This document shows positions 47,204 through 52,486 of a DNA stretch of 64,000 bases, piece after piece. The stretch spans positions 124,001 through 188,000 of the forward strand of contig JAFRMR010000023.1 of the NCBI GenBank assembly GCA_017430535.1, read 5' to 3'. How positions within the stretch are numbered: position 1 is the first letter of the stretch; each line of letters starts with the position of its first letter. The translations under genes and the position numbers were made by a program. The notes below the pieces were generated by a model. It was not told where the DNA came from. It ran no database searches and worked only from the letters and a program-made list of their open reading frames with translations. This DNA is from Clostridia bacterium (GTDB lineage: Bacteria; Bacillota; Clostridia; Oscillospirales; Acutalibacteraceae).

Positions 47204-49840
47204 TTATTTCAGCATTCCGGCAAGTATATCCGCAGCACCGGACATAGCTTCGCCTGTTTTATCAACATTTTTTGTGCCCGCCATGGCGCTGTCGGGTCTG
47301 CCGCCGCCGGAGCCCCCGGCTATGGCTGCAACTGCCCTGACTATATTGCCGGCGTGAGCCCCTGCCGCAACAGCAGCTTTACCGCAGGCGCAGGCAAAGT
47401 TGGCGGCTGTTTTTTCGGCGTTAATGCCGCAGATGATAATAACAAGGTCATCTTCATCCTTGGCTTTATCGCACATATTCCTGAGCTCGCCGGGGTTAAC
47501 TCCCTCAAGGGTTACCGCACTCAGACGGATGCCTTTGATATTCTGAACATTATCGGTGAGATCTCCGGCTTTGAAGGCGGAAATTTCGCCGCGGAGCTTT
47601 TCTATCTCTTTTTCGTTTGCTTTTATTTCGCCCATAAGCGCCGACGCTCTCTTATCAATATCCGAAACATTGGTAAGCTTCATAGCGGCGGCTGTGTTTC
47701 TTATAAGCTCATTGTTTTCCGCAATATAATCCAGCACGCCGAAACCGGTAACGCCCTCTATACGGCGTATGCCTGCGGCAACGGATGACTCATAAACTAT
47801 TTTGAAAAGACCTATTTTGCCTGTATTTGATACATGAGTACCGCCGCAGAGTTCGGTTGAGAAATCACCGGCTTTAACTACCCTGACTATATCGCCGTAC
47901 TTTTCGCCGAACAGAGCCATTGCGCCCTGCTTCTTTGCTTCTTCAATGGGCATTTCCGTTACGGTAACGGGAAGGGCGGAGAAAATAACCTCATTAACTC
48001 TGTTTTCAAGAGCGGTTATTTCATCGGGGGTAAGTGCGCTGAAGTGGGTAAAGTCAAACCTTACGGCCTTGCCGTTTACAAGCTGACCGGCCTGCTCAAC
48101 ATGAGAGCCCAGCAGCTCTCTGAGAGCAGCCTGCAGAAGGTGGGCGGAGGTATGGTTGCGGGCGGTGGCTTCCCTTAACTTAACATCAATCCCGGCCCTG
48201 CACTTATCGCCTGCGGCAACGCTTTCGCCTCTGGTGATTCTGCCAATGTGAAGGAATATGCCGTCGGCGGTTTTTGTTACGGTATCAACGGTGAATTCTG
48301 CCGAGCCGAAATCAAGAACGCCTTTATCCCCTGCCTGGCCGCCGCTTTCGCCGTAAAATACGGTTCTGTCAAGCACAAGGGCGGCTTCGGTATCGGGGCC
48401 TATAAAATCAACTCTTTCACCGCCGGAAATCAGGGCTATAACTTCGCTTTCGCAGCTGTAGCTCTCATAGCCCAGGAACTCTGTTGCATTTATATCTTTG
48501 AGGGAGGCTCCGCCGCCTTTCCAGGCCTCTGCTCCCGCATCCTTGCGGGCGGCTCTTGCGGCGGCTCTGCTCTGAGCATAGAGCTTTTCATACTCTTCCA
48601 TATCAACCTTCATGCCCTTTTCCTCAAGGAGCTCTCTTGTGAGATCAATGGGGAAGCCGAAGGTATCCTGAAGCTTGAAGGCATCCGCGCCGGAGAGGGT
48701 GTTATTCTCAGCGCCGTCAATAAGGGTTTCAAGCAGATTAAGGCCGGTATCTATGGTTTTATTGAAGTTTTCTTCCTCGGCCTTTATTACCTTAACGATA
48801 AGATCGTGCTTTTCAACAAGGTTGGGGTATGCGTTTTCATTCTCTTTAATTACGGTTTCCGCAACTTTATAGAGGAACAGGCCGTCAATACCCAGAAGCC
48901 TGCCGTGCCTTGCGGCTCTTCTGAGCAGGCGGCGCAGAACATAGCCCCTGCCTTCGTTTGAGGGCATTACGCCGTCGCCTATCATAAAGGTAGTGCTCCT
49001 TATGTGGTCCGTGATAACGCGAAGGGAAATATCGTTCTTTTCGTTTTCGTGATATTTTATGCCGGAAATATCGATTATGTGCTTCATGATATTCTGCACG
49101 GTATCAACCTCAAAGAGGTTATCAACCCCCTGCATTATGCAGGCGATTCTTTCAAGGCCCATACCGGTATCGATATTGCAGCTTTTAAGCCGTGTGTAAT
49201 TGTTATTTCCGTCGTTTTCAAACTGAGTGAAAACAAGGTTCCAGAATTCGGTGTATCTGTCACAGTCGCAGCCGACTTTACAGTCCGGCTTGCCGCAGCC
49301 GTATTTTTCACCTCTGTCAAAGTACAGCTCGGAGCAGGGGCCGCAGGGGCCTGCGCCGTGCTCCCAGAAGTTATCCTCTTTGCCAAGGCGTGAAATATGA
49401 TCCTCGGCAACGCCGATTTCTTTGGTCCAGATATCATAGGCCTCGTCATCATCGGTATAAACCGTAACATGCAGGCGGTCAACAGGCATTTCCATAACCT
49501 GAGTGCAGAATTCCCAGGCCCAGTTTATGGCTTCCCTCTTGAAATAATCACCGAAGGAGAAGTTGCCCAGCATCTCAAAATAGGTGCCATGGCGGGCGGT
49601 GATGCCTACCCTTTCTATATCAGGGGTACGGATGCACTTCTGGCAGGTGGTGACCCTGGTGCGGGGAGGGGTGAGCTCACCGGTAAAGTATTTTTTTAGG
49701 GGAGCCATACCTGCGTTTATAAGCAGAAGGCTTTTGTCGTTCTGGGGCACAAGAGAGAAACTGGGCATGGCAAGGTGCCCTTTTGATTCAAAAAATTTAA
49801 GATACTTCTCTCTTATTTCGTTTAAGCCCATCCATTCCAT
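47204..49840 (-). CDS. alaS: Alanyl-tRNA synthetase
   Basis: An 878-aa class II synthetase. The N-terminal catalytic core has GHLAMPSFSLVP, MLGNFSFGDYFKREAI and FTQFENDG. The editing domain has HTSAHLLQAALRELLG (HxxxH) and the CGGTHVSNTG zinc/editing site. A C-Ala domain with a GGGRPDSAMAG-type glycine loop ends it. Start ATG 49840 has GGAGGAATTATT upstream; a longer frame to 49999 runs through the T-box and is not translated. It heads the operon through ispF and is under T-box control. Confidence 0.97.
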   Translation of the reverse strand: MEWMGLNEIREKYLKFFESKGHLAMPSFSLVPQNDKSLLLINAGMAPLKKYFTGELTPPRTRVTTCQKCIRTPDIERVGITARHGTYFEMLGNFSFGDYFKREAINWAWEFCTQVMEMPVDRLHVTVYTDDDEAYDIWTKEIGVAEDHISRLGKEDNFWEHGAGPCGPCSELYFDRGEKYGCGKPDCKVGCDCDRYTEFWNLVFTQFENDGNNNYTRLKSCNIDTGMGLERIACIMQGVDNLFEVDTVQNIMKHIIDISGIKYHENEKNDISLRVITDHIRSTTFMIGDGVMPSNEGRGYVLRRLLRRAARHGRLLGIDGLFLYKVAETVIKENENAYPNLVEKHDLIVKVIKAEEENFNKTIDTGLNLLETLIDGAENNTLSGADAFKLQDTFGFPIDLTRELLEEKGMKVDMEEYEKLYAQSRAAARAARKDAGAEAWKGGGASLKDINATEFLGYESYSCESEVIALISGGERVDFIGPDTEAALVLDRTVFYGESGGQAGDKGVLDFGSAEFTVDTVTKTADGIFLHIGRITRGESVAAGDKCRAGIDVKLREATARNHTSAHLLQAALRELLGSHVEQAGQLVNGKAVRFDFTHFSALTPDEITALENRVNEVIFSALPVTVTEMPIEEAKKQGAMALFGEKYGDIVRVVKAGDFSTELCGGTHVSNTGKIGLFKIVYESSVAAGIRRIEGVTGFGVLDYIAENNELIRNTAAAMKLTNVSDIDKRASALMGEIKANEKEIEKLRGEISAFKAGDLTDNVQNIKGIRLSAVTLEGVNPGELRNMCDKAKDEDDLVIIICGINAEKTAANFACACGKAAVAAGAHAGNIVRAVAAIAGGSGGGRPDSAMAGTKNVDKTGEAMSGAADILAGMLK

Positions 49841-49863: not shown

Positions 49864-50090
49864 AAATGAAAAAAGGTGCAGTATTGCAATTGCTTGGGAC
49901 GATCTTACGACCGCGGTACCACCCAAATTGCGCAGAAACTGCACCACTTGATATCCTTAACGCAGAACTTACGCCGCCCTTCAACAGAGCGGAGCTCAAA
50001 AGCGGCCCTTCCGTTTCGCTTTGCCCGGCGGCTGTCTCAGCAAAAAGCCGTCTCTCTGTGAGCTGAAGCGGAATTCTTCTTTATCAAAGC
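49864..50090 (-). promoter_or_regulatory. T-box riboswitch leader of alaS
   Basis: A transcription-attenuation leader that senses uncharged tRNA-Ala. The conserved T-box core GGGTGGTACCGCGG lies at 49924-49911. Upstream a Stem I-like fold uses AGCTCA and TGAGCT arms around AGAGAG and GCTGAGA. GGTGCAGT (about 49949-49942) pairs with ACTGCACC (about 49881-49874) in the terminator arm, with T-rich sequence after it. The specifier triplet should be an Ala codon (GCC or GCU occurs on the 3' side of Stem I) but I could not fix it by eye. No clear promoter is seen; the leader begins right after the WG gene. Confidence 0.92.
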
Positions 50091-50100
50091 TTTGTTTGTT

Positions 50101-52089
50101 TTATTTTGCCTGCATATATCCTATGGCTACCCAGCCGTATTTGTCGTTATCCATCTTGATTCTCAGCCAGGTTTTGCCGGTATCTTCGGCTTCCTTGGTT
50201 TCATAGCCCTCAACTTCATCGCCGGTGGCAAGGTCGCCAATATCTTCATAGGTTCCGCCGGGGCCGGACCTTACATTGATGCCGCTGTCTGCAACACAGA
50301 TGTAGGTTCTGGCTTCATCGGTATCGGGAGGAGTATTTTCGCCGTTCTCGCCGTTTTCATCAACAATATCAATCTTGACACCGGTGAAGGTATTGATTGC
50401 GTTGCCCACAAGGATAACGCCCCAGGTGCCGTCTTTATTGGCAATAAATACGCCGTTATCGCCTACCATGATGTTTCTGTACTCAAAGGGAACAATAACA
50501 TCATTGCTCATATTGATTATGCCCATAACGCCGTTTTTCTTTACGGCAACAAGGCCGTTATTGACGGGACGGCAGTAATCGCAGAATGAAGCCTCTCCGC
50601 TGGAGAGATCATTAACGGGTTCATATTCATAAGGAACAACTTTTTTATCATCTTCCTGCCTGATATATCCCCATTTGCCGTTCTTTTCGGCGGCGGCGTA
50701 GCCCTCAAAGAAGCGGTCCCTTTCATCATAGGGGGCTTTCTTATCAAGATCCTGAGGAGTAACGCCGTGCTTGCCGTGAGGTGTTTCTGAAATAATGGCG
50801 GTGCCGTTGTCAACGCTGACAAAATACTGCTCGCCTTCTATGGTAACAAGGGTATGGTACTGGCCCTGGCTTTCATAGTCCCTGCCGTAGCCGCAACGCT
50901 GGAATTCATCATAATTGGGCTGAAGAAGTACATTGCCTCTATAATCGATAAGACCGTACTTTTTGGTAACCGAGGAAAGGAATACGCAGCAGTTCTCATC
51001 AAGGTACTGGATATCTGCACAGTTTTCAAATCCGCCGGGAACCCATTTATAATCGCCGGTTTTGATTTCCGCTGCGGTGGTCTGGCCGGCCATTGTGGTA
51101 TTATCGTTGCCTTTGTTCTTTTTGCCGTGGGATGCGGCGGCAACAATAATGATAACAAGAAGAAGGGCGGCGGCGATAATCGCGAGCTTTTTGAAATCCA
51201 GATTGCCGATTCTGATTTTTCTGATATCAAAGCCCTTTTTGCGGGAGCTTACGGGGGCGGGAGTATCGGCAAAGGAATCAAAATCTATTCCGCCGGATTC
51301 CGCGTTATCGGGATCTGTGGGGATACCCGGTGAAGGCGGAACTTTGGGGCCTGAGGAGGGAATGCTGGGCTCCGACCTGAAGTAACCGGAGGGAGCGGGA
51401 GCTTCGCCTGCTTTGACCTCTTCTGTATGTTTGAATGACTTGTAAATTTCAAGAGCGTAGGAGAATATGTCCTTAACCGTTTCGCCGGAAATCTCAACGC
51501 CGCTCATCTGATCCTGAAGGATTCTGGTGAGAACAGGCAGAGCACCGGAAGCCGGTGAGGGATCGCCGCTTTCGCAGGCGGCGAAGATTTCTTCACGGCC
51601 TTTGGCAAGCAGAGAATTGACTGTGCTTTCGGACACGCCCAGCTGCTTTGAGAGGGACTGAACCGGCATACCGCTGAAATAGTGAAGCACTATGGGCAGA
51701 CGGTACTCGGGCCTGAGGGCATCAACGGCATCAAGTGCCGCCGCTGCCTTGCGGCTGTTTTCAAAAACATCCTCTGAGAGGAACTCAAAGGAACCCTCGG
51801 GAACATTGCCCTCGGCATCGTCAAAAACAAAGTTTTCGCCCTCTTTATAGACGGAGGCAACATTCTGCTTCATCCATATTTCAAAAGCCTCGGGCTTTTT
51901 GAGCTTTGTGATTGTGCAGAAAGCCCTTGCATAAGCTTTTTTGGTAATCTCAGCCGCTGCGCTTTCACTGCCGGAAAGCTTCAGGGCAAGAAAATATGAC
52001 ATCTTGAGAGTACCGGAATACAGCCTTGCCAGCGCATCGGTGTTTCCGTTACAGGCTGCGTTTACACAGCTTACGATTTCTTCGTTCAT
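50101..52089 (-). CDS. Sigma-factor-like N-terminus, membrane span, WG repeats and SH3b domain (putative membrane-tethered regulator)
   Basis: A 662-aa protein of unusual layout. Residues 1-170 resemble ECF sigma regions: a sigma2-like stretch DALARLYSGTLKMSYFLALK and a sigma4-like helix-turn-helix with VQSLSKQLGVSESTVNSLL. The DAED-type acidic motif is not conserved. A Pro/Ser-rich linker with RKKGFDIRKIR precedes one membrane span (about 300-320). Then come WG-type repeats (KKYGLIDYRGN, NGKWGYIRQED, NGVMGIINMSND, DGTWGVILVGN), and a bacterial SH3 domain (GINVRSGPGGTYEDIGD, YGWVAIGYM) ends it. ATG 52089 or the adjacent TTG 52092 is the start. A perfect promoter lies upstream. Function is not known. 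Confidence 0.85.
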   Translation of the reverse strand: MNEEIVSCVNAACNGNTDALARLYSGTLKMSYFLALKLSGSESAAAEITKKAYARAFCTITKLKKPEAFEIWMKQNVASVYKEGENFVFDDAEGNVPEGSFEFLSEDVFENSRKAAAALDAVDALRPEYRLPIVLHYFSGMPVQSLSKQLGVSESTVNSLLAKGREEIFAACESGDPSPASGALPVLTRILQDQMSGVEISGETVKDIFSYALEIYKSFKHTEEVKAGEAPAPSGYFRSEPSIPSSGPKVPPSPGIPTDPDNAESGGIDFDSFADTPAPVSSRKKGFDIRKIRIGNLDFKKLAIIAAALLLVIIIVAAASHGKKNKGNDNTTMAGQTTAAEIKTGDYKWVPGGFENCADIQYLDENCCVFLSSVTKKYGLIDYRGNVLLQPNYDEFQRCGYGRDYESQGQYHTLVTIEGEQYFVSVDNGTAIISETPHGKHGVTPQDLDKKAPYDERDRFFEGYAAAEKNGKWGYIRQEDDKKVVPYEYEPVNDLSSGEASFCDYCRPVNNGLVAVKKNGVMGIINMSNDVIVPFEYRNIMVGDNGVFIANKDGTWGVILVGNAINTFTGVKIDIVDENGENGENTPPDTDEARTYICVADSGINVRSGPGGTYEDIGDLATGDEVEGYETKEAEDTGKTWLRIKMDNDKYGWVAIGYMQAK

Positions 52090-52145
52090 CAATAAATCAC
52101 TCCTGTCTGCAATATTTTAAGCAACAATAGACAATAATATATTAT

Positions 52146-52174
52146 ATTATATAAATATATAGCAGTTTTGTCAA
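52146..52174 (-). promoter_or_regulatory. Perfect sigma-A promoter of the sigma-like/WG gene
   Basis: TTGACA (52174-52169), 17-base spacer, TATAAT (52151-52146), both consensus, on the minus strand. The TATAAT is embedded in an AT-rich run. Leader to the start codon is about 50 bases. Confidence 0.85.
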
Positions 52175-52285: not shown

Positions 52286-52486
52286 TTATCCGCAGCAGTC
52301 ATAATCTGCGTAAATATAGATGCAGTTATTCAGCTTCAGGTTTTCCGAAAGGTCTGCAATATAGCCGGTTCCGTTTTTTACGGAGTAGGCAATCTTTTCT
52401 CCGCAGCAGGGGCAGACCGTGTATTTGGTTTCGCTGTAATTTGTGTGAGCAAGAAGCTTGCCGCATTTAAGGCACCAGATTTTCAT
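52286..52486 (-). CDS. Small zinc-ribbon protein, unknown function
   Basis: A 66-aa protein with CLKCGK and CPCCGEK, two CxxC knuckles that should bind one zinc, and a short C-terminal part ending YADYDCCG. I do not recognise the family. GGGTGG seven bases upstream of ATG 52486 serves as ribosome site. It follows the WYL regulator by 89 bases and ends at a strong terminator. It could be co-regulated with that gene, because related inverted repeats occur before both. Confidence 0.75.
   Translation of the reverse strand: MKIWCLKCGKLLAHTNYSETKYTVCPCCGEKIAYSVKNGTGYIADLSENLKLNNCIYIYADYDCCG

Follow-up and report, generated by a model that had tools for sequence, protein, structure and literature searches.

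The stretch of DNA analyzed here (the window) comprises 64,000 nucleotides (nt), positions 124,001-188,000 of contig JAFRMR010000023.1 from an Acutalibacteraceae genome (GCA_017430535.1). Its minus strand carries a gene for a 662-amino-acid (aa) protein that begins like an extracytoplasmic function (ECF) sigma factor, crosses the membrane once by prediction, and ends in WG repeats and an SH3b domain. This raises the question of whether such a protein still reads promoters from the membrane, or whether its sigma fold now serves another purpose. We tentatively favor the latter, with the gene encoding a single-pass membrane protein whose ECF-sigma fold has been turned into an adaptor for protein binding, a sigma mimic, and is not a promoter-reading sigma factor. 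The protein is real, conserved, and unusual, and neither a sigma nor a non-sigma role has been demonstrated for it.

Domain layout and predicted topology

Four Pfam families scored above their cut-offs in the window protein: Sigma70_r4_2 (residues 118-167), Sigma70_r4, WG repeats in four stretches (PF14903, 51.9 bits versus a family cut-off of 25.6), and SH3_3 (bacterial SH3b, PF08239; residues 602-658). Sigma70_r2 gave no Pfam match in this protein at E values up to 1. The ECF family model TIGR02954 matched residues 7-169 with an E value of 1.2e-14 (54.4 bits; its cut-off is 188.5), TIGR02937, the general ECF model, fell slightly below its cut-off (40.8 versus 42.9), and none of the matches listed (25 of 39) reached an NCBIfam cut-off. 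The homology covers sigma2 and sigma4 without sigma1 or sigma3, as in ECF proteins (sigma-70 group 4), and the predicted fold of the domain matches SigW, sigmaE, and AlgU.

Orthologues were sought across 45 genomes of the genus at a threshold of E 1e-40, and our orthologue alignment holds 29 rows. It excludes L024 and L035, which are cut at contig ends, and L043 (G031), in which the sigma part and the outside part are two open reading frames (ORFs); also outside it are G005, G006, G014, and G033 (G005 and G006 being partial or split) and eight genomes found later. At E values up to 0.01, Sigma70_r4_2 and WG repeats were each detected in all 29 orthologues, SH3_3 in 27, and Sigma70_r2 in 1. Three residues in the region of the helix pair that follows sigma4 (P185, V186, and F209) are invariant across the alignment.

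These matches bear on two other readings. The first, which we regard as unlikely, is that the protein works as an ECF sigma factor tethered to the membrane, has an unusual promoter preference, and is released or exposed upon wall stress sensed outside, in the manner of ECF52 or IutY; a match that spans the whole ECF length and a helix-turn-helix above the Pfam cut-off would suit it, although the detection of Sigma70_r2 in a single orthologue does not. The second, which we consider improbable, is a membrane-anchored one-component DNA-binding regulator following a ToxR/CadC-like logic, wherein the sigma4 helix-turn-helix is used and sigma2 is a scaffold. Both the presence of Sigma70_r4_2 in every orthologue and the combination of a single span with an outside domain are in its favor.

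We counted one span in each of the 29 orthologues of at least 600 aa, with an excess of lysine and arginine on the N-terminal side in 27 and ties in 2, so the sigma part is predicted to lie inside and the WG and SH3b domains outside. An earlier note on this DNA had proposed that one frame joins an ECF-sigma-like N terminus, a single span, WG repeats, and SH3b, and the ORF, the profile matches, and the hydrophobic span at 302-320 bear this out. The check it had named beforehand, of residues 1-170 against sigma2 and sigma4, returned matches by both profile and predicted structure, and its placement of the two ends on opposite sides agrees with the span and charge counts.

Altered contact positions in a conserved domain

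The closest same-layout proteins belong to a family of ECF-sigma, linker, and membrane-span fusions, found in the same genus (L080-L119, 450-931 aa) and in other genera (L123-L131 and L164-L168). Their outside domains vary (LRR_5, CAP, or of no known kind), and some genomes of the genus hold several. Like the window protein, these paralogues have an ECF domain, a linker, a span in most cases (a hydrophobic segment with a Kyte-Doolittle value of at least 1.8 in 33 of 41 long ECF proteins of the genus), and a variable C-terminal part. They differ from it in retaining Sigma70_r2 (39 of the 40 scanned against Pfam, compared with 40 for Sigma70_r4_2, 9 for LRR_5, and 4 for CAP), in an alanine-rich linker, in LRR_5 or CAP domains outside, and in keeping the canonical motifs, with few exceptions among the 38 aligned. 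From 43 paralogue ORFs, two were dropped (the second ORFs of L096 and L110); L119, whose score and length equal those of L097, was omitted from the Pfam scan, and the 38-row alignment omits L080 and a second L088 protein.

Beyond the genus, nine other genera of the family (79 sampled, its own included) had a frame of at least 480 aa whose alignment extended at least to residue 240 (E below 1e-19), and at the class level similar fusions of at least 390 aa occurred in 6 of 196 genomes, with matches inspected in 5 of the 6. A hydrophobic segment of 1.6 or more was present in 12 of the 14 other-genus fusions inspected, not counting L122, a same-genus copy of L085. The window genome also encodes a 560-aa ECF-type protein with a long C-terminal extension (L003:322-2004, minus strand), whose adjacent ORF resembles an ABC-transporter ATPase by eye.

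Going by ECF structures, we take the acidic-xx-Q motif of region 2.2 to bind core polymerase, the asparagine and basic stretch of region 2.4 to read the -10 element, and the lysine and arginine of the region 4.2 recognition helix to contact the -35 element. The orthologue and paralogue sigma domains were linked by hhalign (99.9%, E 3.5e-31). In region 2.2, the glutamine present in all 38 paralogues is replaced in the 29 orthologues by lysine in 26 and serine in 2, with glutamine in 1, whereas an acidic residue is kept in 28 at the position that is aspartate in all 38 paralogues (glutamate 21, aspartate 7, asparagine 1). The region 2.4 asparagine occurs in 35 of 38 paralogues but in only 1 of 29 orthologues, the basic stretch is shorter in orthologues by 3 (hhalign) to 6 (MAFFT) residues, and the segment averages 3.21 lysines and arginines compared with 5.84. 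In the recognition helix, lysine (37 of 38 paralogues) gives way to asparagine in 26 orthologues, glutamate in 2, and aspartate in 1, while arginine (38 of 38) gives way to leucine in 22, valine in 5, and phenylalanine in 2, and the mean number of basic residues is 1.72, versus 3.0 in the fused paralogues. Across all 41 paralogue rows, the canonical residue was found in 40 (D), 40 (Q), 37 (N), 39 (K), and 40 (R); the second L088 protein is canonical at all five positions, and L080 departs at all five. L080 (182-2974, minus strand, in G011; 931 aa) resembles the window protein in its altered sigma domain and helix pair but carries a different outside part; it shares 29% identity with the window protein over about 240 aa and is the lone such case in the 45 genomes.

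We found, then, that the sigma2 motif called degenerate in the earlier note is altered across the 29 orthologues, and that the replaced contact positions mostly hold one conserved alternative residue (lysine in 26, asparagine in 26, and leucine in 22 of 29 at the glutamine, lysine, and arginine positions). These replacements, together with a shortened and less basic region 2.4, speak against a working sigma factor, and the loss of lysine and arginine from a less basic recognition helix speaks against a DNA-binding regulator. Two points favor a working sigma factor instead. The same-layout paralogues retain canonical motifs, and departures at several of these positions also occur in the genome's soluble ECF-like proteins: in a rough alignment of six of them, glutamine was present in 2, lysine or arginine at the first helix position in 3, and arginine or lysine at the second in 3. 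Given that these soluble proteins vary at key positions, the substitutions are no basis for a strong conclusion, although the contrast is sharper against the fused paralogues, the nearest same-layout proteins, and in region 2.4. Among the soluble ECF-like proteins of the window genome, several (L004-L008) are without the canonical Q, K, or R at sigma contact positions. We therefore regard the replaced positions as suggestive, not proof, that promoters are no longer read.

A fourth possibility is that this is a wall-binding membrane protein whose sigma-like domain is a relic or simple anchor, which would fit the replaced contact residues. A relic would be expected to decay, yet ratios of nonsynonymous to synonymous substitution (dN/dS) were as low in the sigma2 part (0.03-0.11; 11 of 12 pairs computable) as in the WG domain (0.03-0.30), and the linker was looser (0.07-0.54; 8 of 12 pairs). 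The sigma4 part gave 0.03-0.19 (12 of 12 pairs). Sigma2 is thus constrained about equally to sigma4 or more, which is unexpected of a mere scaffold in a DNA-binding regulator. Given the low dN/dS and the conserved replacements, we conclude from the alignments that the sigma-like domain is kept but altered, under strong purifying selection.

A relative without the sigma part, and known systems

The outer part of the protein has a sigma-less paralogue. A 414-aa protein of the window genome (L174:7396-8640, minus strand) shares the span, here N-terminal, the WG repeats, and SH3b with the window protein (37% identity over 114 aa) but has no sigma-like domain; it also differs in its neighborhood, its gene adjoining genes for a GH5 glycoside hydrolase and an alpha/beta hydrolase. 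Frames with WG repeats only were present in at least 33 of 36 same-genus relatives among the matches listed. Since a sigma-less relative exists, a membrane WG-SH3b module that can stand alone seems to have been fused in the window protein to a sigma-linker part. This is also the other argument for the relic or anchor explanation, to which, given the constraint on sigma2, we assign very little probability.

Membrane-fused ECF sigma factors have precedents in ECF48, ECF52, ECF53, and IutY, according to PMC8999054, and these lend a working sigma factor some plausibility. As described in PMC8999054 and PMC5826349, ECF52 (SCO4117), ECF48, and ECF53 of Actinobacteria likewise join an ECF sigma domain, a span, and an extracytoplasmic part in one chain, a one-chain membrane layout that ECF52 shares with IutY. 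The window protein has the span and an extracytoplasmic ligand-type domain, as ECF52 does. Those actinobacterial proteins carry a zinc-finger anti-sigma domain, however, and their sigma domain is regarded as active, whereas the contacts of the clostridial protein are replaced and its outside part consists of WG repeats and SH3b; zf-HC2 had no Pfam match in it at E up to 1. PhyR, according to PMC8103513, has a sigma fold whose promoter and core contacts are degenerate, and it acts by titration. A degenerate N-terminal sigma-like domain, which in PhyR titrates NepR, is common to both proteins, but PhyR is a response regulator and the window protein is membrane-tethered, with no Pfam match to a C-terminal receiver domain at E up to 1. 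Because it lacks both receiver and zinc finger by these searches, we place the window protein in neither the PhyR nor the ECF52 type. No zf-HC2 anti-sigma factor was found in the window genome (3 of 14 controls matched, and other anti-sigma classes were not searched for), so an anti-sigma factor of that class is unlikely to be the target of a decoy role. We found a sigma-like membrane protein with WG repeats and SH3b described nowhere in the literature covered, which mostly did not extend to subscription papers.

Returning to the adaptor that we favor, SH3b and WG repeats would bind or monitor the cell wall from outside and act through the single span and flexible linker on the sigma-like domain. 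That domain, together with the helix pair, would engage a cytoplasmic partner, perhaps an RNA polymerase surface or a regulator normally bound to a real sigma factor, and the state of the outside part would alter this engagement; promoters would presumably no longer be read. The fuller version, in which a core gene of one uncultured clostridial genus encodes a wall receptor whose former ECF sigma inside competes for or recruits a partner in the transcription machinery in a wall-dependent way, making it a membrane-tethered sigma-factor mimic, is somewhat less probable. Of the one-protein envelope sensor put forward in the earlier note, the architecture and topology stand, and a sigma that starts transcription lacks support, with Q, N and the basic stretch, K, and R all replaced. 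Its fallback, binding of polymerase or DNA without starting transcription, appears to fit better.

The locus, its transcript, and its distribution in the genus

Orthologues were present in 42 of the 45 genomes, and in all 15 with completeness of 90% or more and contamination of 5% or less; in draft genomes G005, G006, G009, G028, and G031 they were partial or split. None was found in G017, G022, or G035 (79, 63, and 86% complete), where alaS also had no match. The same alaS query found matches in 38 of 41 genomes, so the locus seems to be unassembled in those three. In an order-level sample, only 1 of 295 genomes, the window's own, matched at E 1e-30 or better. The next gene downstream is alaS, for alanyl-tRNA synthetase, in 24 of 29 same-genus loci, and the other 5 stretches run out no more than about 500 nt from the gene; among 16 loci on named contigs (several from the same genomes), 14 have alaS, then HIT, APRT, and ComEC, and 2 end near the gene. 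No relative was seen upstream of alaS in any of the 27 other-genus loci with enough upstream sequence. Given this genus-wide presence, the fixed alaS locus, and the absence at alaS elsewhere, the gene belongs to the core of this genus alone and has apparently been inherited vertically. In the tree, the orthologues group as a single clade (SH-aLRT 97) with a long stem of 0.8 and no resolved sister group.

Table 1. Features of the sigma-like gene, its product, and its downstream neighbor (window coordinates)
Feature	Position	Strand	Basis
ORF, 662 aa, ATG start, stop included	50101..52089	-	ORF listing; full open frame 50101-52092
Sigma2-like domain, aa 1-92, altered region 2.2, shortened region 2.4 basic stretch	51814..52089	-	Pfam contrast, fold matches, substitutions
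Sigma4-like helix-turn-helix, aa 112-172, altered recognition helix	51574..51756	-	Sigma70_r4_2, substitutions
Conserved helix pair after sigma4, aa 186-228	51406..51534	-	AlphaFold2 helices 186-196 and 202-228
Pro/Ser-rich linker, aa 229-298, disordered in model	51196..51405	-	Model confidence (pLDDT) <50 for 230-297
Single transmembrane helix, aa 302-320, N-in by charge bias	51130..51186	-	Kyte-Doolittle 3.05; model helix 299-320
WG-repeat domain, aa 345-575, all-beta, propeller-like	50365..51057	-	
SH3b domain, aa 594-662, resembling wall-binding SH3b	50104..50310	-	
Probable ribosome-binding site GGAGTG	52098..52103	-	Read directly; GGAGTG or similar before the orthologues printed
SigmaA-type promoter TTGACA-N17-TATAAT	52146..52174	-	12/12 match, 17-nt spacer
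T-box leader before alaS	49892..50096	-	RF00230, 98.5 bits; onset 4 nt 3' of the sigma-like gene's stop
alaS, conserved downstream neighbor	47204..49840	-	Synteny

The likely start is the ATG at 52089, with GGAGTG 5' of it. The perfect promoter reported in the earlier note is there (12/12 at 52174-52146) and is kept in orthologues: a site of at least 10/12 with a spacer of 17 lies 74-102 nt before the start used in 27 of 28 (the window one counted), the exception being L015 (8/12), whereas 12 of 177 stretches of 360 nt on the window's minus strand reach 10/12 as background. This plain sigmaA-type promoter is a further point against a working ECF sigma factor, although no search for ECF-type motifs was made there.

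The transcript of its own that the same note had assigned to the gene is doubtful. With the T-box starting so close to the stop, no terminator listed between them, and a best promoter-like site of 8/12, the commonest background score, in the 360 nt around the gene end, transcription likely reads through into the alaS T-box in the window; loci with wider gaps may differ. A T-box reached its gathering score in 10 of the 20 orthologue loci searched, the earliest onset lying 3 nt inside the stop codon and the latest 97 nt past it, and in several orthologues too it abuts the stop codon, which suggests read-through from the upstream gene.

Upstream of the sigma-like gene lie a 66-aa ORF (52286-52486, minus strand) and a WYL regulator. 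The small ORF has paired cysteines, looks like a zinc ribbon by eye, has no Pfam match, and is also found 5' of the orthologue in L017. As had been claimed, no anti-sigma gene was recognized beside the sigma-like gene, either among these or at the T-box and alaS downstream.

If the proposed reading is true, mimicry of sigma factors would not be limited to PhyR but would reach a transmembrane receptor made of one protein, and Clostridia would have signaling modules in the form of promoter-silent sigma folds. Since the genus also holds canonical fusions of an ECF domain to a span with varied outside domains, altered and canonical versions of one layout would be directly comparable within it.
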